A DNA stretch of 64,000 nt, from the NCBI GenBank assembly GCA_024637095.1, contig JAGXFV010000049.1, positions 1-64,000 on the forward strand, in the 5' to 3' direction. Origin of the DNA: Actinomycetes bacterium. Its GTDB lineage: Bacteria > Actinomycetota > Thermoleophilia > RBG-16-64-13. A program made the position numbers and the translations under genes. Of the stretch, positions 26,361 to 38,786 are shown piece after piece. Position 1 is the first letter of the stretch; every line of letters begins with the position of its first letter. Under the pieces are notes generated by a model. That model was given only the letters and a program-made list of their open reading frames with translations, was not told the DNA's origin and made no database searches.

Positions 26361-26885
26361 GTGCCTAAGACGGGTCGGGTCATAATCAATACCGGGGACG
26401 GCAAGGGAAAGACCACTGCCGCGCTGGGGACTGCGTTTCGGGCGGCCGGCCACGGTCAGAAGGTGGCGATCGTCCAGTTCATGAAAGGCAAGTGGACCTA
26501 CGGCGAATTGGCGGCCATCGATCAGTTCCCCAACATCACTTTTGTGCGCATGGGCCGGACCGGGTTTACCTGGGAAAAGGAAGGCCCAGAGGAGGACCAC
26601 GCCCTGGCCGAGCGGATATGGGAAATCTCCATGGAGTTGGTCGATGGCGGCGAGTATGACCTGCTTGTAATGGATGAGCTCAACTACGCGCTCGACTATG
26701 GCTTTCTGGAATTGGACACTGTGCTCGACTTCTTGGAGAGCAGGCCGGATAATCTGTCGGTGATCATCACCGGGCGGCGGGCCAAGCCGGAAATCATCGC
26801 CCTAGCCGACACGGTCACAGAAATGACCGCGATCAAGCACGCCTTTGGGTCCGGAAGACGGGCCAAGAAGGGCATCGAGTACTGA
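26361..26885 (+). CDS. cobO: Cob(I)yrinic acid a,c-diamide adenosyltransferase
   Basis: A 174-residue CobA/CobO/BtuR-family ATP:corrinoid adenosyltransferase that converts cob(I)alamin to adenosylcobalamin. The P-loop is NTGDGKGKTTAALG at the N-terminus; IVQFMKGKWTYGE and LVMDELNYALDYGF are further family marks. The GTG start is at 26361. It is upstream of a GntR regulator and the corrinoid methyltransferase locus, and would also supply the adenosylcobalamin needed by methylmalonyl-CoA mutase at 50.9 kb. Confidence 0.93.
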   Translation: MPKTGRVIINTGDGKGKTTAALGTAFRAAGHGQKVAIVQFMKGKWTYGELAAIDQFPNITFVRMGRTGFTWEKEGPEEDHALAERIWEISMELVDGGEYDLLVMDELNYALDYGFLELDTVLDFLESRPDNLSVIITGRRAKPEIIALADTVTEMTAIKHAFGSGRRAKKGIEY

Positions 26886-26895
26886 CGGAGGGCCA

Positions 26896-27753
26896 ATGGC
26901 CAAAAACAACGCCGGCGAGGGCCGCTTGGTTCCTACCGCGAGGGCGCGGTCGATTCTCGAGCGCTTGGTGGAACTCAATCGTCTGAATGCCGGCGAGCAC
27001 GAGATCGGACTGGAACCGGTCGGCAAGGATGAGCCTGAGGAGGCCGGTCTGGCCCTCACGCCGGTCCGCCGCCGCCGTCTATACGAGGACGTGGTCCATC
27101 AATTGCAGGGCCTGATCTCATCAGGAAAGCTGGAGCCGGGAGACCAACTGCCCTCCGAGCGTGCCCTCGCCGATCAGTTGGCTATCAGCCGCACCAGCGT
27201 GCGCGAGGCACTTCGCATTCTCGAGGCCAGGGGTATGCTGGAAGCCAGACCGGGACAGGGGCTATTCGTGCGGGGGTGGCGTTCCGACGAGATCGTCAAC
27301 ACTCTTGCCGCAGTTCTCCTGCGGGAGAGGGAGAGCTTTCTCGAGGTTCTCGACGTTCGCGAGGCGCTCGAGAGGAAGGCGGCCGAACTTGCGGCCACGC
27401 TCGCCACGGCCAAGGACCTGGATGCTCTGAAGTCCGCCGTGATCGCCATGCAAGAAGAGGTGCTGGAGGGCAAGCCCCCCCTGGAGGCGGATGAGGACTT
27501 CCATCGGGCCCTCGCCATGGCCTCGCGCAACGAAGTGCTTCGTCAGATGCTAGAGACCGCCATGGGCTTGATGTCCCATCATCGCCGTACGGTTTTTGCC
27601 CAGAGCTACGGCAGTCTCCTGGTGCTCCATCAGCACGTCAGCATCTACCGAGCCATCAAAAGCCGCGACGCAAAGCGGGCGGGCGAGTTGGTTACGGCCC
27701 ATCTCAGAGAGATCGGTCGGTCCTACTCCCAGCGTTCCCGCCGCTCGACCTAG
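26896..27753 (+). CDS. FadR-subfamily GntR transcription regulator
   Basis: A 285-residue regulator. After an unusual ~55-residue N-terminal extension comes a GntR winged helix (LYEDVVHQLQGLISSGKLEP, QLAISRTSVREALRILEARG) and an all-helical FCD ligand domain (VREALERKAAELAATLA, FHRALAMASRNEVLRQML). ATG at 26896 follows GGAGGG. FCD regulators bind small carboxylates or metal-bound ligands. Operators of the FadR type (TGGTCnGACCA) occur just downstream at 27855 and 27887, so it probably controls the corrinoid operon that follows. Confidence 0.88.
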   Translation: MAKNNAGEGRLVPTARARSILERLVELNRLNAGEHEIGLEPVGKDEPEEAGLALTPVRRRRLYEDVVHQLQGLISSGKLEPGDQLPSERALADQLAISRTSVREALRILEARGMLEARPGQGLFVRGWRSDEIVNTLAAVLLRERESFLEVLDVREALERKAAELAATLATAKDLDALKSAVIAMQEEVLEGKPPLEADEDFHRALAMASRNEVLRQMLETAMGLMSHHRRTVFAQSYGSLLVLHQHVSIYRAIKSRDAKRAGELVTAHLREIGRSYSQRSRRST

Positions 27754-27899: not shown

Positions 27900-27984
27900 T
27901 AGATCGCAGGATCAACGGCCCGACGAAGGTCCCAGAACCAGGGGGTTGCGGGGAGAGGCGGGACGAACTCAATATCGACGAAGC

Positions 27985-28110
27985 TTTCCGAGCTGTTCGG
28001 CGCAGAGCGCCCGCAGCTAACGAGAGGCAAGTCCGGTTAGAATCCGGCGCGGTCCCGCCACTGTAAGTGCCTCACGCACGAGCCAGAAAACTCTCCGGGA
28101 AGTCGTTTCG
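27985..28110 (+). ncRNA. Cobalamin riboswitch
   Basis: The core AAGTCCGGTTAGAATCCGG (about 28029-28047) followed by GCGGTCCCGCCACTGTAA (about 28048-28065) matches the conserved B12-box region of cobalamin riboswitches. A downstream GCCAGAAAACTCTCCGG fits the variant of the usual GCCAGGAGACCTGCC element. The 5' boundary is approximate. It lies in the leader of the RACE-MtrH-MtaA-corrinoid-protein operon. B12 binding would be expected to favour the terminator at 28117. Confidence 0.9.
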
Positions 28111-28116
28111 TATCCG

Positions 28117-28281: not shown

Positions 28282-30276
28282 TTGAGCGAAAAGAAGATGT
28301 TCACCGTGATTTTCCAGCCCTCGGGAAGCCGGGGCAAGGTTGAGGAGGGAACCCCGGTTCTGCAGGCAGGACGGGATCTCGGTGTCGAAATCGAAGCCAT
28401 CTGCGGCGAGAAGCGAACCTGCGGCAAGTGTAAGATCCGTGTCGAAGAAGGCTTTTTCGAGCGCTACGGAATCGAATCCGCGGCGGACCACGTCTCCAAG
28501 TGGCGGCCGGTCGAAGAGAAATTCATCAATGAAAAGCGCCGCGAAGAGGGCTACCGGCTGAGCTGTGTGGCCAAAGTCGACGGCGATCTGGTCATCTTCG
28601 TCCCCGAGGAAAGCCGCTCCGGCGGCCAGGTGGTGCGCAAGGCCGCCACCGACCGTAAGATCGAGGTCAACCCGTCGATTAACACCTACTACGTCGAGTT
28701 GGTCCCCCCCACCCTCCACGATCCGCTGGGCGACTATGAGCGCATGGTCGAGGGACTCAAGGAGCAGCACGGTCTCGAAGAGCGGCCCAGGATCGACTAT
28801 CAGGTGCTGCGTACGTTGCCCGACGTCATCCGCGAGGCTCACTGGAAGGTCTCGGTTGCCATCTGGGACGGTGACGGCTTCCCGGAGATCGTAAAAGTGA
28901 CCCCGGGTAAGGTCGAGCGCAGCCTCGGGCTTGCCGTGGACGTGGGTACTACCACGGTCGCCGCCTACCTTTGTGACCTGCACACGGGTGAGGTGCTGAA
29001 CACCGACTCCATGATGAACCCGCAGGTACCTTACGGCGAAGATGTGATGAGCCGGATCACCTACGCGATGTCCCACCCCGAGGACGGCATCAAGAAGTTG
29101 CAGGACGCCATCATCGAGGGCATCAACACGATCGCGGCCCGGGTTACTGAGGCGGTTGGCTTCACCCATCGCGACATCCTCGAGATGACGATCGTGTTCA
29201 ACACCGCCATGCACCACTGCTTCCTAGGGATCTACCCTGAGCATCTGGGTCTGGCTCCATACGCCCCGGCGTTGCACCATTCGATGAACATCAAGGCGCG
29301 AGATCTCAAGCTGGACTTCGCTCTAGGTGCCAACGTGTTCGTGCTGCCCAACGAAGCCGGCTTCGTTGGCGCGGATAACGTCGGTGTGCTTATCGCCGAA
29401 GCGCCGTACAACCAGGACGAGAAAGTGCTGATCATCGACATCGGCACCAACGGCGAGCTCATCATGGGCAACCGGCAAGAGCTGATCTCCTCGTCCTGCG
29501 CTACGGGTCCCGCGCTCGAAGGCGCGCACATCAAGTACGGGATGCGGGCGGCTCCGGGAGCGATCGAGAGGATCTACATCAATCCGGAGACCAAAGAGCC
29601 GCGCTACAAGGTGATCGGCAAGGAAGAATGGTCCGATCAGATTCCGCAGGGAGAAATCGGCACCAAGGGCATCTGCGGCTCGGGCATCATCGATGCCATC
29701 GCCGAACTCTTCAAGGCCGGCATCATCGACAAGACCGGCAAGTTCGTCAAGGGTATGGACGAGCAGTACGAGCGGATCCGCAGAGGCGACGACGGCATGG
29801 AATACGTGCTGGCCTGGGCCGATGAGACCTCGATCCACCAAGACGTGGTCATCACTATCAAGGACGTCCGTTCGGTACAGCTTGCCAAGGGCGCGCTCTA
29901 CGCCGGCGCCAAGATCATGATGCAGAAGCTCGGGTACGAGTCGCTGGACAAGGTCATTCTGGCCGGCGCCTTCGGTTCGTTCATCGACCGGGAGGAATCC
30001 CTTGTAATCGGGATGTTCCCCGACGTGCCTATCGCCAAAGCCTACGCGGTCGGTAACGCGGCCGGCGACGGTGCCCGGATGGCTCTGCTCGACAAGAGCA
30101 AGCGTGCCGAAGCCGACGAATGGGCCCGCAAGGTCGAATACATCGAGCTCTCGGTGGAGCCGAAGTTCGAGAAGGAATTCATGATGGCGATGCATCTGCC
30201 GCACATGAAGGACAAGTTCGGACACTTGGCGGAAGGTCTGGAAGGCGAAGGCCTCGACGGACTCGTCAAGGCTTAA
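28282..30276 (+). CDS. Reductive activator of corrinoid proteins (RACE)
   Basis: A 664-residue ASKHA-type activator that uses ATP to return inactive cob(II)alamin in corrinoid proteins to cob(I)alamin. An N-terminal [2Fe-2S] ferredoxin-like domain has Cys in ICGEKRTCGKCKIRV and a later LSCVAKVDGDLVIF. The ATPase part carries LAVDVGTTTVAAYLCDL, IDIGTNGELIMG and ILAGAFGSFIDREES. TTG at 28282 is chosen because GGGAG lies 8 nt upstream; ATG 28297 is possible. First gene after the cobalamin riboswitch and 14 nt before the MtrH-like gene. Confidence 0.93.
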   Translation: MSEKKMFTVIFQPSGSRGKVEEGTPVLQAGRDLGVEIEAICGEKRTCGKCKIRVEEGFFERYGIESAADHVSKWRPVEEKFINEKRREEGYRLSCVAKVDGDLVIFVPEESRSGGQVVRKAATDRKIEVNPSINTYYVELVPPTLHDPLGDYERMVEGLKEQHGLEERPRIDYQVLRTLPDVIREAHWKVSVAIWDGDGFPEIVKVTPGKVERSLGLAVDVGTTTVAAYLCDLHTGEVLNTDSMMNPQVPYGEDVMSRITYAMSHPEDGIKKLQDAIIEGINTIAARVTEAVGFTHRDILEMTIVFNTAMHHCFLGIYPEHLGLAPYAPALHHSMNIKARDLKLDFALGANVFVLPNEAGFVGADNVGVLIAEAPYNQDEKVLIIDIGTNGELIMGNRQELISSSCATGPALEGAHIKYGMRAAPGAIERIYINPETKEPRYKVIGKEEWSDQIPQGEIGTKGICGSGIIDAIAELFKAGIIDKTGKFVKGMDEQYERIRRGDDGMEYVLAWADETSIHQDVVITIKDVRSVQLAKGALYAGAKIMMQKLGYESLDKVILAGAFGSFIDREESLVIGMFPDVPIAKAYAVGNAAGDGARMALLDKSKRAEADEWARKVEYIELSVEPKFEKEFMMAMHLPHMKDKFGHLAEGLEGEGLDGLVKA

Positions 30277-30290
30277 GGGGGGTTCAACAA

Positions 30291-31280
30291 ATGGCAGATG
30301 CTACAGGCTCAGGATCCAAGATGTTCAACTTCGACACAGAGCAGAAGGTGTTCGAGATCGCAGGGATCAAGGTGGGCGGGCAGCCGGGGGTCAATCCTCC
30401 CCTGCTCATTCCCTCCATGTTCCAGAAGGGCGATCCGGCCATCGAAAGTCGCCGGCAGCGCAAGTTCAATAAGCAGTTGGCCGGGGACAACATCAAGCGG
30501 ATGGAAGAACTGTCCGAGATGACCGGCATGCCCGCACTGGTGGCGATGGTGGCCAATCAGGGCGAAGAGATGAAGAACTACATCGACTTCTACGTGGAGG
30601 CCACTGATCTTCCTTTCGCTATCGACATGTGGAACCTGGATCCTCGGATGGAGGCCACCAAGTACGTGGCCGAGCAGGGACTGCAGGACCGACTCCTCTA
30701 CAACTCCGTTACGGTGTGGAGCCCGGACGTACCTGCCGAGGTCGAGCTGATCAAGGAACTCGGCGTGAAGCACGTGGTCACAGTGGTCATGGACATGGTC
30801 AACCAGACCCCCAGCGGTCGCCTGAGCTCTCTCGACGATATGTTGGACAAGATGAAGCCCGGTGAGTTCGAGAGCATCCTGGTAGACACCTCGGTCATGA
30901 ACCTGCCGGCCACCGGCATATGTGCCCTGGCCAACCGGTTGGTCAAGGAGAAGTACGGGCTACCCGCCGGTGCAGCATCGGCCAACGGCACTTATATGTG
31001 GCAGAAGTCGACCTACCGGGACAATAGGGAGAAGTGGGGCGAGAACGCATTCGTCGGCCTCGACGCCGGCACGCACGCCGCCTCGGTAGCCCTTTGGGGC
31101 GACTTCATCTTCAGCGGCCCGATGTGGGGCATTGACTCGGTCTTCCCGGCCGTGGCCGCCGCGCACTCGATGGTCAGCCTGATGAACTGGGCGGAGACGG
31201 GTGAACTGACTCAAAACGAGTCGACGCCCCTACACAAGTTGTGGCCGGATTATGTCAAGACACTCAAGGGTGAAGAGTAA
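30291..31280 (+). CDS. MtrH-family methyltransferase (corrinoid to pterin)
   Basis: A 329-residue protein related to tetrahydromethanopterin S-methyltransferase subunit H. It starts MFNFDTEQKVFEIAGIKVGG after a short leader, the family N-terminus, and keeps ELSEMTGMPALVAMVANQGEE and the TIM-barrel pattern. In bacterial corrinoid systems these enzymes move the methyl group from methyl-corrinoid protein to tetrahydrofolate. Spacing to RACE is 14 nt. The pterin acceptor (tetrahydrofolate) is inferred. Confidence 0.88.
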   Translation: MADATGSGSKMFNFDTEQKVFEIAGIKVGGQPGVNPPLLIPSMFQKGDPAIESRRQRKFNKQLAGDNIKRMEELSEMTGMPALVAMVANQGEEMKNYIDFYVEATDLPFAIDMWNLDPRMEATKYVAEQGLQDRLLYNSVTVWSPDVPAEVELIKELGVKHVVTVVMDMVNQTPSGRLSSLDDMLDKMKPGEFESILVDTSVMNLPATGICALANRLVKEKYGLPAGAASANGTYMWQKSTYRDNREKWGENAFVGLDAGTHAASVALWGDFIFSGPMWGIDSVFPAVAAAHSMVSLMNWAETGELTQNESTPLHKLWPDYVKTLKGEE

Positions 31281-31317
31281 ACCCGGCCAAACGAGCGAAA
31301 AGGAGCAGGACGAACAC

Positions 31318-32361
31318 ATGACTATGACGCACAAGGAACGGGTTCTCAAGACGATCAAAGGGGAGCCGGTCGATAAGATGCCGGCGTTCACCGGGTTCGG
31401 CGCGGTCCTCGTCGAGGGGCTGGAGAAGTACGGTCTGCGCTTTGCCCATGTCCACCTGGACGCGGACGAAATGGCCAAGGCTGCAGCGGCGACGAGCGAG
31501 TTGGCCGGCCTCGAGGCAATCGTGGTGCCGTTCGACATGGGCGTGGAGGCCGAAGCTCTGGGCGCTACGCTCAACACCTACCCGCACTCCGAGGACCTTC
31601 TCTACCCCACGCTGCGCGACAAGTTCGTGCATACGGCGGATGACATCAACCTGCCCGCGGACATCGCGAACGCGGGTCGCGTGCCCCTGGTGACAGAGGC
31701 CATCAAGAAGCTCAAAGAGCAGTACGGCGAAGAATACGCCGTGGCGTCCTGGGTGCTCGGTCCCTTCACCTTGGCCGGCCAGGTGATGGACCTGAACGAA
31801 CTGCTGAAAATGAGCTTCAAGGAGCCGGAAAAGGCTAACGCCATCCTCGACAAGCTGAGCGACATGATCATCGGTGTGGGTAAGGCCTATATCGCCGCCG
31901 GTGCGGACTACCTCTCGCTCCGCGAGATGGGAGCCACCTCCGACGTGCTCTCGCCTCGGGCCTACAAGAAGCAAATCAAGGGCTTCTCGCAACGCATCGT
32001 CGAGGAACTGAAGGCAACGGGCGTGCCCATCGTCTACCATATCTGTGGCGACACCAACATGATCATCGAGGATATGGCGGAACTCGGTGCCGACGCGGTC
32101 TCTGTGGACCAAAAGAACGACCTCAAGGCCAGCCGGGAGAAGCTGGGCGACGAGGTGGTCCTTCTCGGCAACATAAATCCCTGGGATGTTTTCACCCAAG
32201 GGAGCAAGGAAGACGTTCAGCGCGAGGTTAGGGCGTCAGTGGAGGCGGGCGCGGACGCGGTCTGGCCCGGCTGCGACATCTGGCCGACCACTTCGACCGC
32301 GAACATCAAGACCTGGGTGGAAACCAGCCACGAGCTGACACCTCGGCGGAACGGCGCCTAG
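31318..32361 (+). CDS. MtaA/UroD-family corrinoid methyltransferase (Cys form)
   Basis: A 347-residue uroporphyrinogen-decarboxylase-fold methyltransferase. The zinc ligands of the MtaA/MtbA type are present: His and Cys in YHICGD near residue 241, and the C-terminal Cys in WPGCDIWPTTSTANIK near 322. Such enzymes activate a thiol or transfer methyl groups to or from a corrinoid protein. It lies between the MtrH-like gene and the corrinoid protein. It is the internal control for the Sec-containing relative at 34140, where the C-terminal Cys position is TGA. Confidence 0.88.
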   Translation: MTMTHKERVLKTIKGEPVDKMPAFTGFGAVLVEGLEKYGLRFAHVHLDADEMAKAAAATSELAGLEAIVVPFDMGVEAEALGATLNTYPHSEDLLYPTLRDKFVHTADDINLPADIANAGRVPLVTEAIKKLKEQYGEEYAVASWVLGPFTLAGQVMDLNELLKMSFKEPEKANAILDKLSDMIIGVGKAYIAAGADYLSLREMGATSDVLSPRAYKKQIKGFSQRIVEELKATGVPIVYHICGDTNMIIEDMAELGADAVSVDQKNDLKASREKLGDEVVLLGNINPWDVFTQGSKEDVQREVRASVEAGADAVWPGCDIWPTTSTANIKTWVETSHELTPRRNGA

Positions 32362-32373
32362 AGATAGACTATC

Positions 32374-32396
32374 GGCCCCGGCCTCAGGCCGGGGCC
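32374..32396. repeat. Intercistronic hairpin before the corrinoid-protein gene
   Basis: GGCCCCGGCC and GGCCGGGGCC form a perfect 10-bp stem around a TCA loop. There is no T-run. It may stabilise or attenuate the mRNA between the MtaA-like gene and the corrinoid protein gene. Confidence 0.6.
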
Positions 32397-32433
32397 CCGG
32401 TATCCAAGAGAACACGTAAAGGGAGAACAACAC

Positions 32434-33099
32434 ATGGGATCCGACGAGCGCAAGCAGGAACTTTTCGGCAAGATGAAGGAAGGCGTCATCGAGTACGACG
32501 AAGACCAAGTCGTCGAGGCCGCCAATGCCCTGGTCGACGAAGGCTTCGATGCCTACGAGGGCATCATGGACGGCCTGGCCGCCGGCATGGAAGTCGTCGG
32601 CGAACTGTTTGATAGTCAAGAGTACTTCGTTCCCGAAGTCCTGATGTGCGCCGACGCCCTGTACGCCGGCCTCGATATCCTGCGTCCCAGAGTGGACATG
32701 ACAGGCCGCGAGGCTGTCAAGGGCGAGGTAGTGATCGGTGTGGTCGAGGGCGACGTGCACGACATCGGCAAGAACCTCGTGAAGATGATGTTCGAGGTCG
32801 CCGGCTTCACCGTACACGACCTGGGCGCGGACGTGCCGATCGACGAGTTCGTAGAGAAGCAGATCAACACCAACTCGGACATCGTGGCCTTGTCCGCCAT
32901 GATGACCACCACCATGATGGGTATGAAGAAAGCCATCGTGAAGCTGAAGGAAAAGAACCCGGACGTCATGATCATGCTGGGCGGCGCCCCGGTTACCGGC
33001 GAGATCGCCGACATGTTCGGTGCGGATGGCTACTCCGAGAACGCCTCCAACGCGGTTTCCGAGGCGATCAAGATGGTGGCTGCACTCCGCAAGATGTAG
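32434..33099 (+). CDS. Methyl-accepting corrinoid protein (MtbC/MttC-like)
   Basis: A 221-residue B12-binding protein. The N-terminal helical cap domain spans about residues 1-90. The Rossmann-like cobalamin domain starts KGEVVIGVVEGDVHDIGKNL, with the lower-axial-ligand His in DxHxxG, followed by LSAMMTTTMMGMKKAI and MLGGAPVTGEIADMFGADGY. It shuttles the methyl group between the methyltransferases and is reactivated by RACE. Strong hairpins lie on both sides of the gene. Confidence 0.95.
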   Translation: MGSDERKQELFGKMKEGVIEYDEDQVVEAANALVDEGFDAYEGIMDGLAAGMEVVGELFDSQEYFVPEVLMCADALYAGLDILRPRVDMTGREAVKGEVVIGVVEGDVHDIGKNLVKMMFEVAGFTVHDLGADVPIDEFVEKQINTNSDIVALSAMMTTTMMGMKKAIVKLKEKNPDVMIMLGGAPVTGEIADMFGADGYSENASNAVSEAIKMVAALRKM

Positions 33100-33113
33100 T
33101 AGCTCTAAGAGCA

Positions 33114-33144
33114 GGCGGCCGGCGGACAAAAGCCGCCGGCCGCC
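33114..33144. repeat. Intercistronic hairpin after the corrinoid-protein gene
   Basis: GGCGGCCGGCGG and CCGCCGGCCGCC form a perfect 12-bp stem around ACAAAAG, 15 nt after the stop codon. No T-run follows; it may protect the upstream mRNA. Confidence 0.65.
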
Positions 33145-33179
33145 GCGAACGGGGGGGCTGTTTAATCAGACACGGGCCT

Positions 33180-33914
33180 TTGGCACTCGTAGACCGTCGG
33201 ACCGGACTGGTCGAGACGATAGAGGAACTCGCACTGGATTGCGGCGTGGATGTCTTGGGCTTTGGGGACGTGAGCGAGGCCCTCCCCCCGGGTTTCGCTC
33301 ATCTTCCCGTTGGAGTCTCGGTCGGAGTGGCCCTCGGGCAGAGCCCTGGTGGCCCTGCCCGTTACGATCACCGCGACGCCCAGATACAGAGCATTCTGGA
33401 TGAGGCCCTTAGGGAGATCGCTGCCTTCCTCCGCTTGCGAGCGTACCGGTATTTCTGCTGTCCCGCCGAGTGCGACCCCATGGAATCACCGTTCACCGCC
33501 CGGATGGCGCATCGGTTCTCTCACAAGGCTGCGGCGACTTGCGCGGGCCTCGGCTGGGTTGGACGCAACGGGCTGTTGATCCACCCCGAGCTCGGTCCCT
33601 ACGTGTCCTGGGCCACGGTTGTCACGAACGCGCCCTTGCCTCTGGGGGACCCGTGGATCGAAGGACAGTGTGGCAGTTGCACGGCCTGTGCCGAGGCCTG
33701 TCCCGCGGGGGCAATCAGCGGGAGGGTTTGGCGGAGGAGCCATGGCATGCGCCGATTGGTTGACGCCGACCGCTGCCGGGGCTCTTTGGACGTTGTGGAA
33801 AGGGAAACGGGCTCTCGCGTCTGCGGTCGGTGCGTAGTTGCCTGTGCGTCCGTCTATCGGGAGAAGAGCGCCGTTGGACGTACGGGCCTTGAGTTAGATT
33901 GGTCTAACCTATAA
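33180..33914 (+). CDS. QueG-like iron-sulfur protein
   Basis: A 244-residue protein similar to epoxyqueuosine reductase. It has the RFSHKAAATCAGLGWVGRNG and LLIHPELGPYVSWATVVTN segments and a ferredoxin-like cluster site CGSCTACAEACPAGAI plus CGRCVVACAS, enough for about two [4Fe-4S] clusters. QueG enzymes bind cobalamin, and QueG-like proteins occur in other corrinoid loci. The start is uncertain: TTG 33180 is the best placed, but no ribosome site is clear. It may donate electrons to corrinoid factors rather than make queuosine. Confidence 0.72.
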   Translation: MALVDRRTGLVETIEELALDCGVDVLGFGDVSEALPPGFAHLPVGVSVGVALGQSPGGPARYDHRDAQIQSILDEALREIAAFLRLRAYRYFCCPAECDPMESPFTARMAHRFSHKAAATCAGLGWVGRNGLLIHPELGPYVSWATVVTNAPLPLGDPWIEGQCGSCTACAEACPAGAISGRVWRRSHGMRRLVDADRCRGSLDVVERETGSRVCGRCVVACASVYREKSAVGRTGLELDWSNL

Positions 33915-33915
33915 A
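33889..33915 (+). promoter_or_regulatory. Predicted promoter with third FadR-type site before the selenoprotein block
   Basis: TTGAGT (33889-33894) and TATAAA (33910-33915) flank a 15-nt spacer containing TGGTCTAACCT (33900-33910), which fits the TnGTnnnACnA pattern of FadR-type operators. The site overlaps the end of the QueG-like gene and precedes a 225-nt leader to the Sec methyltransferase. The short spacer lowers confidence. Confidence 0.4.
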
Positions 33916-34139
33916 CAAGATGGGGAGCTGTATAGACTGGGGCCTTTCCGGCCTTTGAGTATCGGCTCTCTAGAACTTTGTTGGACAATGCGGGTGTGAT
34001 CGCCGACCCGCGGTCTCGCGTGCTCAATGGTTGAGCGAGCCAATAGAGCGCGCATTGGACGGAGAGGAGGTGAAGCCTCGGCGAGCGTGATCAAGGGGCG
34101 CGTCTTTGCGCTCCAGATCCTATCGAGCGAAGGAGGACA

Positions 34140-35225
34140 ATGGGTAAGCAAGCTGTCTTGGATGCATACCAAGGCAAGTACACGCCAGTAGTGCCTTGGG
34201 TGCCGTATGTGGGTGTCCATGCGGGCTATCTGATCGGAGAGCCGGCGGACAAGCTCCTGCAGGACGCCGACCTGCTGGCCAAGGGCGTCCTGAACGCCGC
34301 CGAGCGCTACAATGCCGACGGCATTCCCCTCGCCTTTGACCTCGCCATCGAGGCCATGTCGATGGGTATCGAGGCGAAGTGGTTCCCGGACAATCCGCCG
34401 ACGGTGATCGACCATCCGCTGCAGCATAAGACCATGGCGGAAGCCGATCTGAAGGTGCCGGGCCCGAAAGATGGTCGCTGGCCGTTGATTATCGAGGCCG
34501 GCAAGAAGGTGAAGGAGCAACTCGGGGACCGTGCCCTGATCGGGTTGACCTGTGGTCCTCTGACCCTCGCCTCTCACCTGCGCGGCGCCAAATTCTTCAC
34601 GGACATGGTGAAGAAGCCCGAGTTGGCTGCCGAGATCATGGAGTTCGCGGCTCTCGTGACCAAAGAGTCGGCGCGAATCTACGCGGAAGAAATCGGCTGT
34701 GACATCGTCGCTTTGGTGGAACCCGTGGGTAGCCAGGTGCGCCCGGAGACGTACGACAAGTTCGTGATTCCCGCGTGCCAGCCGGCTCTCGAAACGATTC
34801 ACGCGGCCGACAAGGTCTCCGCCTTGTACATCTGCGGCGACGCCACCAAGATCGTCGAGAACATGATGTACACCGGCGCGCACGCCGTGTGCGTGGACGA
34901 GCAGCTCAACATGAACTACATCCGCGATTGCGCCCTCAAGTATGGTCGCGGTTTCGCCGGCAACCTCAAGCTGACCCTCGCCCTCTCCCTGGGTCTCGTC
35001 GACCCGCGTGAAGACGCTATCGTCAGCTTGGCGGCCGGTGGGAAGATCGGGTTCACCTTCTCCCCTGGCTGAGACATGCCTTACGACGTTCCAGTTGAGA
35101 ACGTGGATAAGGTTCTGGAAGCCAAGACCTGGTACGAGCAGTACTACGCCCATTACCCGAACGTGCCCTACCCGTCGATCGAGCCCAAGAAGACGCCGGC
35201 GGAACCGATCGTGGAGGTGAGCTAG
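34140..35225 (+). CDS. Selenocysteine-containing UroD/MtaA-family methyltransferase
   Basis: Read to the first TGA (35070-35072) this gives 310 residues ending GKIGFTFSPG. Read through the TGA as Sec it continues DMPYDVPVENVDKVLEAKTW and ends at TAG 35223, for 361 residues. SPG-U-D...P.ENV is the family's C-terminal zinc-ligand motif, with Cys replaced by Sec at residue 311; the relative at 31318 has PGCD there. The other ligand region is LYICGD: Cys is kept but the usual His is Tyr. AAGGAGG precedes ATG 34140. It is likely the substrate-facing methyltransferase of the locus; the substrate is unknown. No selenocysteine machinery genes are in the window. Confidence 0.88.
35070..35120 (+). promoter_or_regulatory. 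Sec TGA codon and candidate SECIS of the UroD-family gene
   Basis: TGA 35070-35072 is followed by AGAAC (35098-35102) pairing with GTTCT (35112-35116) around GTGGATAAG. The loop begins with G, 30 nt after the codon, inside the range used for bacterial SECIS models. A competing stem ACGTT/AACGT (35086/35100) exists. This is the weakest of the five SECIS candidates; the protein-level evidence is stronger. Confidence 0.5.
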
Positions 35226-35573
35226 TTGGCTGAAAACGACAAGATTGTTGTTGAAGTCCTGACACTAGACTCTCTGCAGTGACCGGCGTGCGGGTACATG
35301 GTCGATGTACTTAATTCACTGTCGCCGGAAGTCAAGGACATAATCGATTACAAAGAGTGGTCCATCAAGAACGCCGAAGGTATCGGCATGTTCATGGAAC
35401 GCAAAGGCCGCGTCCTGCCCACTCTTTGCATCGGGGAACAGCTCTGCTACGAGAGCGTCATCCCCACGATCGACGAGCTCTACGAGACGTTGATCGACAA
35501 CGCCAAGAGCGAAGAGCAGAAGACGATTCTCAAGACCTCGTACGACGAGTTCCTGGAGGAGTACAACAAGTAG
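35226..35573 (+). CDS. Thioredoxin-like selenoprotein 1 (UPAC motif)
   Basis: A 115-residue protein starting at TTG 35226, directly after the TAG of the previous gene, with GGAGGTGA five nt upstream. In-frame TGA at 35280 gives VVEVLTLDSLQ-U-PACGYMV, a UxxC redox site after the first beta strand, followed by LPTLCIGEQLCYESVIPT with the cis-Pro position of the thioredoxin fold. Without read-through only a start-less downstream fragment from 35298 remains. A textbook SECIS follows the TGA. Likely a thiol/selenol reductant or metal(loid)-handling protein for the neighbouring enzymes. Confidence 0.88.
35280..35310 (+). promoter_or_regulatory. Sec TGA codon and SECIS of thioredoxin-like selenoprotein 1
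   Basis: TGA 35280-35282 is followed by GTACAT (35294-35299), loop GGTCG (35300-35304) and ATGTAC (35305-35310), a perfect 6-bp stem. The loop starts 18 nt after the codon. Both loop sequence and spacing closely resemble the E. coli fdhF SECIS, whose loop is GGUCU. Confidence 0.88.
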
Positions 35574-35592
35574 CTTCTGCTTCGGGCCTGCA

Positions 35593-35635
35593 GCGGCGGG
35601 TGGCGCCCATCATCGGGCGCCTCCCGCCGTATTTT
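35593..35635 (+). terminator. Predicted terminator or attenuator between the two thioredoxin-like genes
   Basis: GGCGGGTGGCGCCC (35595-35608) pairs with GGGCGCCTCCCGCC (35615-35628), with one mismatch and loop ATCATC, followed by GTATTTTG. The T-run is short, so read-through is likely. The genes after it overlap or abut tightly. Confidence 0.6.
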
Positions 35636-35660
35636 GAGCAGTTCACGTGTGGGAGGCCCC

Positions 35661-35774
35661 ATGCAGGACATCCTGATCGAAGTATTGACCCTCGACTCCA
35701 AGCAATGACCATGTTGCTGGTACTTGGTCGATGTACTCGAGTTCAACGAGCGGCGCATACCGATGAGCAGTTGA
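35661..35774 (+). CDS. Thioredoxin-like selenoprotein 2 (UPCC motif), short or degenerate
   Basis: ATG 35661 has GGGAGG just upstream. Reading TGA 35706-35708 as Sec gives MQDILIEVLTLDSKQ-U-PCCWYLVDVLEFNE, closely parallel to the first 30 residues of the copy at 35226. The frame then stops at TGA 35772 after 37 residues. In the +2 frame a protein-like tail (RAAHTDEQLTVREGARQHVL) runs to TGA 35822-35824, which overlaps the ATG of the next gene. A frameshift in a full-length ancestor would join them. Alternatives: a real short selenopeptide, a programmed frameshift, or a second Sec. The SECIS is conserved. Confidence 0.6.
35706..35736 (+). promoter_or_regulatory. Sec TGA codon and SECIS of thioredoxin-like selenoprotein 2
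   Basis: TGA 35706-35708, then GTACTT (35720-35725), loop GGTCG (35726-35730) and ATGTAC (35731-35736). The stem has one T-T mismatch. Loop sequence and the 17-nt gap to the codon are identical to the copy at 35280. Confidence 0.78.
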
Positions 35775-35823
35775 CGGTGCGCGAGGGGGCTCGGCAGCAT
35801 GTGCTTCGAGAGTACGAGGGCTG

Positions 35824-36390
35824 ATGGCGGTTCGGCGCGTAGCGCTGCACGCCTGCGGGGGAATTACCCGCCCCGGCTCCACGGTCGCGCGGCTGGCGGT
35901 CTATTACGTCGCCGAGGAGTTGCTCCCCGAGAAGGCGCTGGTTTCCTGCGCTCCCGCCTTTCTCCGCGGAGTCGAGGAAGACGTTCTCATGGTGCAGAAG
36001 AGCCCCTCCATCGCCCTCGACGGTTGCGAATGGAGTTGCGGCACGAATCTGCTCTATCTGGCCGGCATCATCCCGGCCGCCCGCATCCTCATACCCGAAT
36101 ACGCGGAGGCTTGCGGGTACGATTTGACCCAGGTGAATCTGCGCTTCCCCACGGGAGTGGGCCGCGATCTGGCGTGGGCAGTCGCGGAGAGGATAGCCGC
36201 GATCGGCAGGGGTATGCTCGAACGGGGGAGCGACTATCGCTTCGAGCGGCCGGGGATCGTCCGCCGCCAGGGGGAGTGGTTCCGTCCGGCGCCCAATATG
36301 GAGGGGGCCTTGGAGTTCGTTCGTCTGGAGCCGGGAGTCTACCGGCCCGTGGGGATGCCGCCTCTTCCCGAAGAGTCAAGGGAGGCCTGA
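35824..36390 (+). CDS. DGC-domain putative metal-binding protein 1
   Basis: A 188-residue protein with the DGC-type putative zinc-binding pattern: an early ALHACGGITRPGSTVARLA, a Cys at LVSCAPAF, and ALDGCEWSCGTNLL near residue 65, plus Cys in EACGYDL. Its ATG overlaps the TGA of the preceding frame (tgATG). It is paralogous to the next gene. DGC proteins are of unknown function but have conserved cysteines suited to metal or thiol chemistry; context suggests handling of a metal(loid) or selenol intermediate. Confidence 0.78.
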   Translation: MAVRRVALHACGGITRPGSTVARLAVYYVAEELLPEKALVSCAPAFLRGVEEDVLMVQKSPSIALDGCEWSCGTNLLYLAGIIPAARILIPEYAEACGYDLTQVNLRFPTGVGRDLAWAVAERIAAIGRGMLERGSDYRFERPGIVRRQGEWFRPAPNMEGALEFVRLEPGVYRPVGMPPLPEESREA

Positions 36391-36395
36391 GCGCT

Positions 36396-37013
36396 GTGGT
36401 GGAGAAGGTCACTGTCTTTCCGTGTGGCGGAATCGGGGACCCGGTTTCCTCGGTGACCCGGCTGGCCGGTTATCTGCTGGCCGAGGATCTGCTGCCGGGC
36501 CGGGTGGAGTTGGTATCCATACCGCCGGTAGTAACCGGCGTCCCCGACGAACTGCGGTTGGTGCAGGAGTATCCGGTGATCGTTCTCGACGGCTGCTCGC
36601 ACCGGTGCGGGTCGAACGCGCTCAACCTGGTTGGGATTCGCCCCGCGGCGCGACTGCTGACTCCGCGCATTCGCAGCCAGACGAAGCACGCGGTCGGCCG
36701 ACGCCGTCCGTATCCGGAGACCTCGGGTCAAAAGCTGGCCAAGGCCCTGGCGGAGAAGGCCGCGGCTGTGGCTCTCGGTATGCTCGAGGATGAGTCCTAC
36801 GCCTTCGAGACTCAGCGGGTGAGCCCAAACCCCGAAGGGTTGATCGACGACACCTTCGACATCGAACGGGGCCTTGGCTATGAGGAAGTGCAGGTCGGCT
36901 GCTTCCATTGCAGCGGCATGTGCGCGTTCAAGCTCAAGGACGATCCGGAGTTGCGGCGCAGGTTGGAAGAAGAGGTCGCGGAGTTCGAGCGCCTGGAGGA
37001 TATCGAATGCTAG
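36396..37013 (+). CDS. DGC-domain putative metal-binding protein 2
   Basis: A 205-residue paralogue of the preceding gene: VFPCGGIGDPVSSVTRLAGY, LDGCSHRCGSNALNLVG, and an additional C-terminal VGCFHCSGMCAFKL cysteine cluster absent from the first copy. GTG 36396 (or 36399) follows GGGAGG. The last 7 nt overlap the following selenoprotein gene, so translation is coupled. Function unknown; the extra CxxCxxxC suggests a second metal or Fe-S site. Confidence 0.78.
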   Translation: MVEKVTVFPCGGIGDPVSSVTRLAGYLLAEDLLPGRVELVSIPPVVTGVPDELRLVQEYPVIVLDGCSHRCGSNALNLVGIRPAARLLTPRIRSQTKHAVGRRRPYPETSGQKLAKALAEKAAAVALGMLEDESYAFETQRVSPNPEGLIDDTFDIERGLGYEEVQVGCFHCSGMCAFKLKDDPELRRRLEEEVAEFERLEDIEC

Positions 37014-37243
37014 ACGAAGGTCCCCAAGGCCCTTTCAAACTACGGCTGATGGGTTGAGTGACCTGCGGGCCGGCCGTGCGCCGGGTTCTCGAGGATTCGC
37101 TCGAGGTCGAGTTGGTCGAGATGGTCTGGGAGGAGCACTGGGCCGACGTCCGTTTTGCCTCGCCGGAGTTCGGCGTGGAGGAATTGCGGATGCGGCTCGT
37201 GCCCGCGGGCGCCTGGTGCGGCCCCTGGCCGGAAGAGGCCTAA
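37007..37243 (+). CDS. Small selenoprotein with UVTC motif
   Basis: A 78-residue protein. ATG 37007 lies inside the end of the DGC gene with GGAGG at 8-9 nt. In-frame TGA 37055-37057 read as Sec gives FKLRLMG-U-VTCGPAVRRVLED, a UxxC site at the start of a helix as in redox-active folds, then ends with RLVPAGAWCGPWPEEA. Codon use around the TGA is continuous. A SECIS-like stem follows at the same spacing as in the thioredoxin-like genes. I do not recognise the family beyond this. Confidence 0.78.
37055..37084 (+). promoter_or_regulatory. Sec TGA codon and SECIS of the UVTC protein
   Basis: TGA 37055-37057 is followed by CCGGC (37070-37074), loop CGTGC (37075-37079) and GCCGG (37080-37084). 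The loop begins 18 nt after the codon, exactly as in the 35280 and 35706 elements. G is the second loop base. Confidence 0.68.
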
Positions 37244-37272
37244 GCCTATGCTGAAGGGAAAGGTCTAATTCG

Positions 37273-37569
37273 ATGCTGACGGTCCAGGTTATTTCCGAGG
37301 GCGGGCACTGCGTTCCCTGAATCATGGCGATCGAGGCCACCAGGGAGGTGGCTGCGGAATTCGGCCAGGCGGCCGTGAAGGTGGAGGTGGTCACCCTCAA
37401 GGAAGCCGAGGGAGCCGCGCGCTACCGTGAGCTTCGGCGCCAGGCCGGCGAACACCTGCCGGTTCCCAGCGTGCTGGTGGAGGGGGCTCTGGCCTTTTCC
37501 GCCATCCCCGAGCCGGATGAGTTGCGTGAGGTTTTCCAGCGGGCGCTCTTCAAGCAAGGCGGCGACTAG
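37273..37569 (+). CDS. Thioredoxin-like selenoprotein 3 (CVPU motif)
   Basis: A 98-residue protein from ATG 37273. In-frame TGA 37318-37320 read as Sec gives TVQVISEGGHCVP-U-IMAIEA, a CxxU site after beta strand 1 and before a helix. Later HLPVPSVLVEGALAFSAIPE has the cis-Pro strand of a thioredoxin fold. Only a downstream fragment is visible if the TGA is taken as stop. The end overlaps the GTG of the next gene by one base (TAGTG). The reversed order (CxxU against UxxC in the other copies) suggests a distinct redox role. Confidence 0.85.
37318..37352 (+). promoter_or_regulatory. Sec TGA codon and SECIS of the CVPU protein
   Basis: TGA 37318-37320, then GCCACC (37336-37341), loop AGGGA (37342-37346) and GGTGGC (37347-37352), a perfect 6-bp stem. 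The loop starts 22 nt after the codon and has G at position two. Confidence 0.72.
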
Positions 37570-38786
37570 TGCTCTACCTCGAAGGCTTCTACGGGCAGCG
37601 CGTGCGTGTGCCTGAGGACCGCCGCTACGATCCTGAGCGCGAACTCTGGCTGCTCGAGGGGGACGGCCGGGTGGTTCTGGGACTCACCCACGCAGGCGTT
37701 GTGTTGTCCGGGGGAATCGAGGACCTCATGCTCGAGGCGGAGGTCGGCCAGGACATCACTGTTGGCGAGCGACTGCTATCGGTCGAAGCGTACAAGGCAG
37801 CCCAGGAAATCACGTCACCGCTGGCCGGACGTCTGGTGGCGGTGAACCGGGAAGTACTGGACAACCCGGAATTGCTGGACGAAGATCCTTATGGAGTCGG
37901 CTGGCTTATGGAATTGAAGCCGAAGCCCGTGAGCGGCGCCACACTGGCCGGATTTCCCACCGCGAACGACTATCTGCGCGCGCTGGAGTCCTCCTGCGCG
38001 GCGACTGACGAGGGGGGCGTCACCGGGGAGTCGGATCTGGGAAACGCCTCGGGGGCTGGGGTCGAGAGCGTGGCCGGCGCTTCGCCCAAGGACGGCCTGT
38101 GCGCCGAGGTCAAACGTGCCACAGTCGCGGACTGCAGCGTCCCTGTTGCTCTCGCTCGCCTGGCTCCGGGAATGAAGGTGATCAATCTGGGGGCACGGGC
38201 CGGGGAAGACGCCGTACTCACCGGCGCGCGGGTAGGCCCGGAAGGGCGCGTCCTGGGAATCGTCCCGACCGACTCCATGCTCGAACGGGATCGGTTGGCG
38301 GCGACGGACGCCGGGCTCGAGAACGTGGAGTTTCGGTCGGGGGAGATCGAGCAGATCCCCGTAGTGGACGGGTGGGCGGATATGGTTATCGCCGGTTGCG
38401 CTGTTAACCTCTCGGCGCGTAAGGACCGGGCATTCGCCGAGGTCTTCCGGGTTCTCGGAGATGGCGGTCTGCTGGCGATCTCTGACATGGTTGTCATCAA
38501 ACCGCTTCCCCCTTTTCTCTCGCGAAATCGTGCGGCCCGCTCCAGTCTCTTAGCACACGCCGTCTCCTTGGAAAAGTATCTGGCGCTCATCGAGCGGGCG
38601 GGATTCATGCGCCCCAAGGTCGAGCAGCTCATCGAGTATTCGAGCGAGCAGTTGGAGACCCTGATGGGCATGGACCTGCGGTCCTTGGAATCGGAGGGCC
38701 GAATGGCAAAGGAGGACCTGGCGCTACTCGAGGGGCGTGTGGCGAGCGCCCACATTTTGGCGCTCAAGGTTCGCTGCAACTGCTAG
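37569..38786 (+). CDS. GcvH-like lipoyl domain fused to ArsM-like methyltransferase
   Basis: A 405-residue two-domain protein. Residues ~1-125 resemble glycine-cleavage H protein, with a candidate lipoyl Lys76 in SVEAYKAAQEITSPLAGRLV and the NPELLDEDPYGVGWL motif. After a linker, residues ~175-400 resemble arsenite methyltransferase: LAPGMKVINLGARAGEDAVL, VEFRSGEIEQIPVVDGWADM, IAGCAVNLSARKDRAFAEVF. The acidic SAM-ribose residue after motif I is replaced (GIVPTDSML), so catalytic competence is uncertain. The chain ends CNC. GTG 37569 overlaps the previous stop, and its stop shares CTAG with convergent rlmN. It may present a dithiol arm to a metal(loid) methyl intermediate. Confidence 0.82.
   Translation: MLYLEGFYGQRVRVPEDRRYDPERELWLLEGDGRVVLGLTHAGVVLSGGIEDLMLEAEVGQDITVGERLLSVEAYKAAQEITSPLAGRLVAVNREVLDNPELLDEDPYGVGWLMELKPKPVSGATLAGFPTANDYLRALESSCAATDEGGVTGESDLGNASGAGVESVAGASPKDGLCAEVKRATVADCSVPVALARLAPGMKVINLGARAGEDAVLTGARVGPEGRVLGIVPTDSMLERDRLAATDAGLENVEFRSGEIEQIPVVDGWADMVIAGCAVNLSARKDRAFAEVFRVLGDGGLLAISDMVVIKPLPPFLSRNRAARSSLLAHAVSLEKYLALIERAGFMRPKVEQLIEYSSEQLETLMGMDLRSLESEGRMAKEDLALLEGRVASAHILALKVRCNC

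Follow-up and report, generated by a model that had tools for sequence, protein, structure and literature searches.

A candidate selenocysteine-dependent corrinoid methyl-transfer locus in a Thermoleophilia actinomycete and its relatives

Gene content of the locus

We analyzed a 64,000-nucleotide stretch (the window) of contig JAGXFV010000049.1 from an Actinomycetes bacterium of the class Thermoleophilia (assembly GCA_024637095.1), which is contig 24 of a 2.47-Mb genome that is 96.6% complete. Our subject is the run of genes between positions 28282 and 38786 (Table 1), which joins corrinoid methyl-transfer genes to genes with in-frame TGA codons and represents a genuine, conserved, and seemingly undescribed variant of corrinoid methyl transfer that probably depends on selenocysteine (Sec). 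At its center lies a UroD/MtaA-superfamily methyltransferase, here called Sec-UroD, which on sequence comparison is well supported as a new selenoprotein family.

A first-pass annotation made from the DNA letters had described a RACE, MtrH-like and MtaA-like methyltransferases, a corrinoid protein (CP), a QueG-like protein, a UroD-family protein, two DGC proteins, and a GcvH-methyltransferase fusion. Profile searches returned family matches in agreement with that whole list. All of the named genes are on the forward strand, as described; that they are mostly abutting holds in part only, with gaps of 225 bases before Sec-UroD and 250 bases before the first DGC gene. The GUVTC selenoprotein gene (UVTC) starts at the ATG at 37007 and overlaps the second DGC gene. 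By its family assignment, the MtrH/MtgA-family protein is probably a methyl-corrinoid:tetrahydrofolate methyltransferase. The corrinoid protein is 99% identical in a congener, and the QueG/RdhA-like protein is also present in homologous loci of Actinomycetota and Clostridia. Before the riboswitch, and likewise on the forward strand, the sequence at 26361-27753 reads as a GntR-type regulator together with a CobA/BtuR-like ATP:corrinoid adenosyltransferase.

Table 1. Features of the locus, with positions in the window and the matches or motifs on which each assignment rests.
Feature	Position	Strand	Matches and motifs
Cobalamin riboswitch upstream of RACE	27971..28114	+	RF00174 31.7 bits, barely over the gathering score of 31.5
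RACE/RACo-type corrinoid reductive activase	28282..30276	+	PF14574 320 bits, PF17651, PF17650, Fer2; NF040756 497 bits (cut-off 800)
MtrH/MtgA-family methyltransferase	30291..31280	+	PF02007 170 bits; NF002142 301 bits, over cut-off
MtaA-like methyltransferase, HxC...C zinc motif intact	31318..32361	+	TIGR01463 265.9 bits, over cut-off; YHICGD, PGCD
Methyltransferase corrinoid protein (CP)	32434..33099	+	TIGR02370 206 bits; PF02310, PF02607
QueG/RdhA-like double [4Fe-4S] protein	33180..33914	+	PF13484; TIGR00276 over 67 residues
Sec-UroD, UroD/MtaA-superfamily methyltransferase	34140..35225	+	PF01208 153 bits; TGA 35070-35072 = Sec311
U1, thioredoxin-like selenoprotein, QUPAC	35226..35573	+	TGA 35280-35282; NF047660 29 bits
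Decayed partial U1 copy, probably nonfunctional	35661..35774	+	Resembles 5' end of U1; TGA about 35706; disrupted in congener
DGC-domain protein 1	35824..36390	+	PF08859 37 bits; Cys11, Asp66, Cys72 conserved
DGC-domain protein 2	36396..37013	+	PF08859 42 bits
GUVTC selenoprotein (UVTC)	37007..37243	+	TGA 37055-37057; HMA/metallochaperone-like predicted fold
HCVPU thioredoxin-like selenoprotein (CVPU), HUIPC group	37273..37569	+	TGA 37318-37320; NF047660 92.9 bits
GcvH-like lipoyl-carrier domain with degenerating ArsM-like domain	37569..38786	+	PF01597, NF045810 98 bits, NF008823 168 bits

Selenocysteine and the Sec-UroD family

Judged from gene content and codon conservation, the selenocysteine in four proteins of the locus is real. 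The first-pass annotation had pointed to the sel genes of the host as a check, and these are present: selA (555 bits), selD (397 bits), and tRNA-Sec (75 bits) score over curated cut-offs, selD itself carries an in-frame TGA, and an open reading frame (ORF) that overlaps selA at its 3' end reads, from its position and sequence, as selB. Across genomes with homologous loci, selB is over its cut-off in 12 of 12, versus 2 of 14 controls. A same-genus genome (G043) holds a syntenic locus in which the TGAs of Sec-UroD, U1, UVTC, and CVPU are all retained, and dN/dS past the TGA, between the window and this congener, is 0.10, 0.26, 0.32, and 0.15, respectively; by this measure the frames beyond the four TGAs are under purifying selection. 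Sec is exchanged for cysteine at the TGA column among homologues of Sec-UroD, U1, and CVPU, and UVTC, its frame constrained past the TGA, has Sec in all six Actinomycetota copies. Homologues with ordinary stops and no downstream frame, which had been named as the pattern that would speak against Sec, are not what we found; the comparison returned Sec/Cys exchange and a constrained frame instead. That the TGAs are ordinary stops followed by pseudogenes is therefore extremely improbable, given exchange at identical columns across phyla, selection past the stop, and the sel genes, and such a reading holds for just one small ORF, the partial U1 copy.

This ORF had been counted as a fifth selenoprotein, a claim that we reject while the other four stand. 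It repeats the first codons of U1, including QUPC, and then ends; the matching stretch in G043 is frameshifted, and no copy between U1 and the first DGC gene was found in other Actinomycetota loci. We regard it as probably a nonfunctional relic of a partial duplication.

The stem-loop downstream of each TGA, offered earlier as evidence, does not carry the weight placed on it. Using the bacterial selenocysteine insertion sequence (SECIS) model of PMC13188914, with arbitrary codons in the non-selenoprotein genes of this GC-rich locus as background, we found that 65 of 96 such codons also satisfy the model. In lower-GC hosts, most Sec forms of Sec-UroD have a hairpin with its apical loop exactly 20 nucleotides past the TGA, and a passing hairpin is absent from four of the five Cys forms. 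Since the background is high and the sequences are related, this pattern is weak support for Sec.

Sec-UroD has 29 homologues, with PGU in 23, PGC in 5, and neither in 1. Aligned to the solved MtaA structure 4ay7, Sec311 falls on the zinc-ligand Cys of APGC and Cys232 on the Cys of the HxC motif; in terms of sequence, Sec311 is homologous to the third zinc ligand of MtaA. The His-Cys-Cys zinc site of MtaA is not preserved, as the zinc His is replaced in all Sec-UroD homologues, mostly by Tyr or Phe, and Sec stands in the Cys position in 23 of the 29. Two further cysteines recur: Cys138 is present in all full-length homologues but two (Thr in L070 and L072), and Cys187 is missing from just one. 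The predicted fold (predicted local distance difference test, pLDDT, 88) has MtaA as its best match in the PDB (4ay8, TM-score 0.83, Foldseek), and the model would place Cys138, Cys232, and Sec311 at the C-terminal ends of the barrel strands, the active-site end, and Cys187 at the opposite end. In methionine synthases, two homologous zinc cysteines of MetE can form a disulfide in crystals, and the zinc site of MetH consists of three cysteines and binds thiolates (PMC539065). With these precedents, a redox-sensitive Cys/Sec zinc site is plausible.

In a tree, the 29 Sec-UroD sequences split from 24 MtaA-type sequences with a support of 100, making the family monophyletic. Sec clades enclose the Cys forms in both the deltaproteobacterial and the clostridial parts, so Sec/Cys exchange happened at least twice. 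One homologue (L072:9579-10601, reverse strand) has neither Sec nor Cys at the site (ATATD) and lacks Cys138; it sits in a second corrinoid locus of a genome that also has a Sec form. Some Clostridia carry a second, Cys-type paralogue with APGCN (L063:13562-15513, L071:8704-12406), which adjoins a MIP channel in one genome and OsmC, DUF302, and CdhD-like proteins in another.

Mo, W, and Ni are, to our knowledge, the metals that partner Sec in catalysis, and a Sec at the residue that holds zinc in MtaA contrasts with these. Ordinary annotation ends Sec-UroD at its TGA, and the ligand is lost with it. The natural Cys forms provide a built-in comparison for what selenium contributes. No UroD or MtaA family appears among the 119 prokaryotic selenoprotein families tabulated in a 2026 paper (PMC13188914), and text searches of the literature, which left most subscription papers outside their coverage and are not proof of absence, found no Sec-containing UroD or MtaA. 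We would tentatively go further, with a little less than even confidence, and propose Sec-UroD as the first methyltransferase with Sec as a catalytic zinc-site ligand, in an undescribed Sec- and lipoyl-based anaerobic demethylation of metalloid- or chalcogen-bound substrates leading into the Wood-Ljungdahl pathway.

With Sec-UroD as query, a scan of 84,980 genomes turned up 13 loci, which belong to Actinomycetota, Clostridia, and deltaproteobacterial lineages. Profile searches of the class to which the clostridial host belongs matched 6 of 98 genomes, two of which had been found before; for the phylum that includes the Desulfomonilaceae host, the figure was 10 of 395. In the phylum of the window, represented by 396 genomes, a strict threshold gave matches in the genus only. 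With so few matching genomes, the family is rare and patchy. Genes for MtrH, MtaA, the corrinoid protein, and RACE recur beside Sec-UroD in Actinomycetota, Clostridia, and Desulfobacterota; U1 follows it in nearly all homologous loci, and the DGC pair and GcvH are common to Actinomycetota, Clostridia, and two Desulfobacterota loci. Of the co-occurring set proposed by the first-pass annotation, UVTC is confined to Actinomycetota and the ArsM fusion to the genus. One distant, Cys-type UroD is fused to a U1-like thioredoxin domain (TCAAC) in a single 454-residue ORF (L075:1191-2555, reverse strand), and the union of the two in one polypeptide indicates that Sec-UroD and U1 work together. ORFs reading as NifS-like and IscU-like lie near this fusion.

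Several neighbors are specific to lineages. Clostridial loci add lipoyl synthase (LipA; TIGR00510, over cut-off), a lipoate-ligase-like protein (LplA), a dihydrolipoyl dehydrogenase-like protein (DLDH; 394 bits, cut-off 409), and, in some, a second GcvH. Aquaporin-family (MIP) channels with Cys-rich tails stand beside Sec-UroD in some Clostridia; those at L033:16481-17317, L063:14662-15513, and L074:4532-5368 end in CDC, CSC, and CC tails, which are unusual for aquaporins. Deltaproteobacterial loci add DUF2284, DUF6951, and CobW proteins. In three Actinomycetota loci, CbbQ-type AAA and VWA-domain genes lie between the corrinoid protein and QueG-like genes (L028:3-3658, L030:387-3796, L031:4693-7301). 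Class II tRNA-synthetase and ATP-grasp genes resembling pyrrolysine genes adjoin one Sec-UroD locus (L061:16008-19768), and an MtmB-family methylamine methyltransferase adjoins another (L070:10272-11654, reverse strand), so that Sec and possibly pyrrolysine methyl-transfer genes are adjacent there.

Among the smaller selenoproteins, U1 has a Cys form, QCAAC, in Clostridia and Desulfobacterota, and the motif of CVPU homologues is HCVPU, HCVPC (L039), or HUIPC (L040). The model of UVTC (pLDDT 87) has HMA domains and MerP as its top Foldseek matches. A literature search on DGC proteins found nothing relevant.

The fusion of GcvH to an ArsM-like domain, put forward earlier as a defining part of the locus, survives only in its GcvH domain. 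It occurs in the window's genus only, and elsewhere GcvH stands alone; between congeners, dN/dS is 0.24 for GcvH and 0.96 for the ArsM-like half, which scores 168.5 bits versus 263 for a full ArsM profile and has one expected arsenic-binding Cys replaced. We do not use the fusion to infer arsenic methylation, and we rejected it as the key to function because it is lineage-specific and unconstrained. The C-terminal CxC tail of the ArsM-like half (38111-38783) is kept in both congener copies despite this dN/dS. As for GcvH, the glycine cleavage P-protein was not found in 8 of 20 hosts, some with incomplete genomes, and the GcvH of the locus is thus probably not for glycine cleavage.

Proposed pathway and its alternatives

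We consider it likely, from the sequence comparisons above, that the locus encodes a selenocysteine-dependent corrinoid pathway carrying methyl groups to tetrahydrofolate from a substrate that binds them through a soft atom (S, Se, or a metalloid). Gene content, Sec/Cys exchange, conservation of the set in three phyla, the homology of Sec311 to a zinc ligand of MtaA, and the presence of selB and CdhC in most hosts are observed; which way the methyl group flows, which metal is bound, how the redox relay runs, and what the substrate is are inferred. The neighboring corrinoid protein, RACE, and MtrH genes suggest that Sec-UroD acts as a corrinoid methyltransferase. Its soft site, in which Cys232, Sec311, and probably Cys138 would replace the His-Cys-Cys of MtaA, would bind the substrate through the methylated heteroatom, which may be S, Se, or a metalloid such as As, and Co(I) of the corrinoid protein would then receive the methyl group. 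From there, the MtrH-like enzyme would move it to tetrahydrofolate, from which it may enter the Wood-Ljungdahl pathway. The MtaA-like enzyme may serve a second methyl donor or acceptor, and RACE would restore oxidized corrinoid. Reduction of the substrate or the Cys/Sec site may fall to the two Sec thioredoxin-like proteins and to the lipoyl-bearing GcvH-like protein, which dihydrolipoyl dehydrogenase would feed wherever a locus includes its gene. Soft metal(loid) or thiol species may be held or delivered by the HMA-fold selenoprotein and the DGC proteins.

This outline retains two proposals of the first-pass annotation: methyl flow to corrinoid and tetrahydrofolate, which is backed by the MtrH/MtgA-family methyltransferase among the corrinoid genes, and redox support from a lipoyl arm and selenols, which the LipA, LplA, and DLDH genes of clostridial loci strengthen. 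Acetyl-CoA synthase (CdhC) is found in 18 of 20 hosts versus 2 of 14 control genomes, which fits delivery of the methyl group to the Wood-Ljungdahl pathway. Because the reducing set is large and a simple thioether transfer needs no reductant, an oxidized or dithiol-bound substrate is suggested, for example a methylated pentavalent metalloid, a disulfide, or a diselenide. We give methylated metalloids and methylated sulfur or selenium compounds equal weight as the substrate, each at somewhat below an even chance, with about half that weight for something else.

Several points weigh against this pathway. That Cys138, Cys232, and Sec311 lie at the active end of the model is read from secondary structure only, and Cys138, being Thr in L070 and L072, may not be a ligand. 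The outlying Desulfobacterota loci L069 and L070 lack the full set nearby, and most homologues come from metagenome-assembled genomes. The hints of a metalloid are each weak, with the ArsM half unconstrained, UVTC in Actinomycetota only, and MIP channels in some Clostridia. The opposite direction of methyl flow is also compatible with the data.

A specific possibility, on which we are doubtful, is demethylation of methylated arsenic or another metalloid, in which a pentavalent compound would be reduced, held by lipoyl, DGC, or selenol groups, and stripped of its methyl group by Co(I). A soft Cys/Cys/Sec site in place of His-Cys-Cys would suit such a substrate, as would the HMA-fold selenoprotein, the metal-binding DUF2284 proteins of Desulfobacterota loci, the adjoining clostridial MIP channels with CxC or CC tails, and the large dithiol/selenol reducing set. 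Anaerobic demethylation of dimethylarsenate is known, without an enzyme assigned to it (PMC10579292), and should a methylated arsenical or selenide prove to be the substrate, this locus would provide the genes for anaerobic demethylation steps of which no enzyme is known. Against this, the ArsM domain is lineage-specific and unconstrained, no other arsenic-resistance gene was recognized in the loci examined, and MIP channels transport many solutes.

On a similar footing, and likewise rather unlikely in our view, an S-methyl compound (a thioether, a methylthio-carboxylate, or dimethyl sulfide or disulfide) may be the methyl source for acetogenesis or respiration. The nearest solved relative, MtaA, is a thiol methyltransferase, thiolates are bound by the tris-Cys site of MetH (PMC539065), and the hosts have carbon monoxide dehydrogenase/acetyl-CoA synthase. 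A carboxylate-type MFS gene in L033 agrees with such a substrate but occurs in that one locus only, and thioether demethylation, which proceeds without a reductant, leaves the lipoyl, Sec-thioredoxin, and DGC proteins unexplained unless the compound is a disulfide or sulfoxide.

Selenium scavenging or recycling, in which methyl-selenides would be demethylated to selenide, the role put forward for Sdm and the type 1 mlp clusters, is less probable still. In mlp, UroD-type methyltransferases, a corrinoid protein, and RACE act on methyl-selenides alongside Sec machinery (PMC10418091), Sdm-like genes are up on selenium starvation in M. maripaludis (PMC11097638), and every host tested for selB here uses Sec. 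The MtrH-like gene and the loss of the zinc His separate the locus from described mlp clusters, however; no selD or other sel gene was recognized in the homologous loci, and an enzyme gathering selenium that itself needs selenium would be awkward in starvation.

We think it improbable that the flow is reversed, with methyl-tetrahydrofolate as the donor for methylating a metal(loid) or thiol. Mercury is methylated from a corrinoid by HgcA, and in principle the steps of MtrH and the corrinoid can run either way, but MtrH with MtaA and RACE, in hosts with acetyl-CoA synthase, is the usual layout of methyl catabolism.

Relation to known systems

The nearest described system to the proposed soft-atom methyl-transfer pathway is type 1 mlp/Sdm (Kountz and Balskus, PMC10418091; Niess and Klein 2004); our comparison with the type 1 mlp clusters rests on the published description of those examined. 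Like them, the locus joins several UroD-superfamily methyltransferases to one corrinoid protein and one RACE in selenium-using anaerobes; a type 1 mlp cluster would have at least an Mlp2 and an Mlp3 together with these two. Unlike the mlp examples described, which lack a tetrahydrofolate methylase, it has the MtrH-like methyltransferase at 30291-31280, and whereas the Mlps have His-Cys-Cys, Sec-UroD has Sec and no zinc His. The GcvH, DGC, DLDH, LipA, and LplA of these loci are not among the described mlp core parts. The GcvH-like carrier, with its conserved Lys context, and the clostridial DLDH, LipA, and LplA resemble the glycine cleavage H protein and its DLDH, but no P- or T-protein was recognized in the homologous loci.

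The first-pass annotation had left open an overlap with the selenocysteine-assisted organometal (SAO) operon, which also has several selenoproteins, including thioredoxin-like ones. No match to SaoL, SaoT, SaoB, SaoC, SaoX, or SaoP was found among the locus proteins tested, even with E-values of up to 10 admitted for the small selenoproteins, and membership in the SAO, Tso, or HUIPC families was rejected for want of a match or for scores below cut-off. CVPU comes closest, with 92.9 bits against NF047660 (HUIPC family) and a homologue in L040 bearing the HUIPC motif itself; it differs in falling under the curated cut-off of 105 and in having Sec at the second, not the first, redox position.

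The soluble coenzyme M methyltransferases MtaA, MtbA, and MtsA share with Sec-UroD its fold and its HxC and PGC positions. Unlike them, Sec-UroD forms a separate clade that carries Tyr, Phe, or Leu/Thr-type residues in place of His, Sec in place of Cys, and the added cysteines Cys138 and Cys187.

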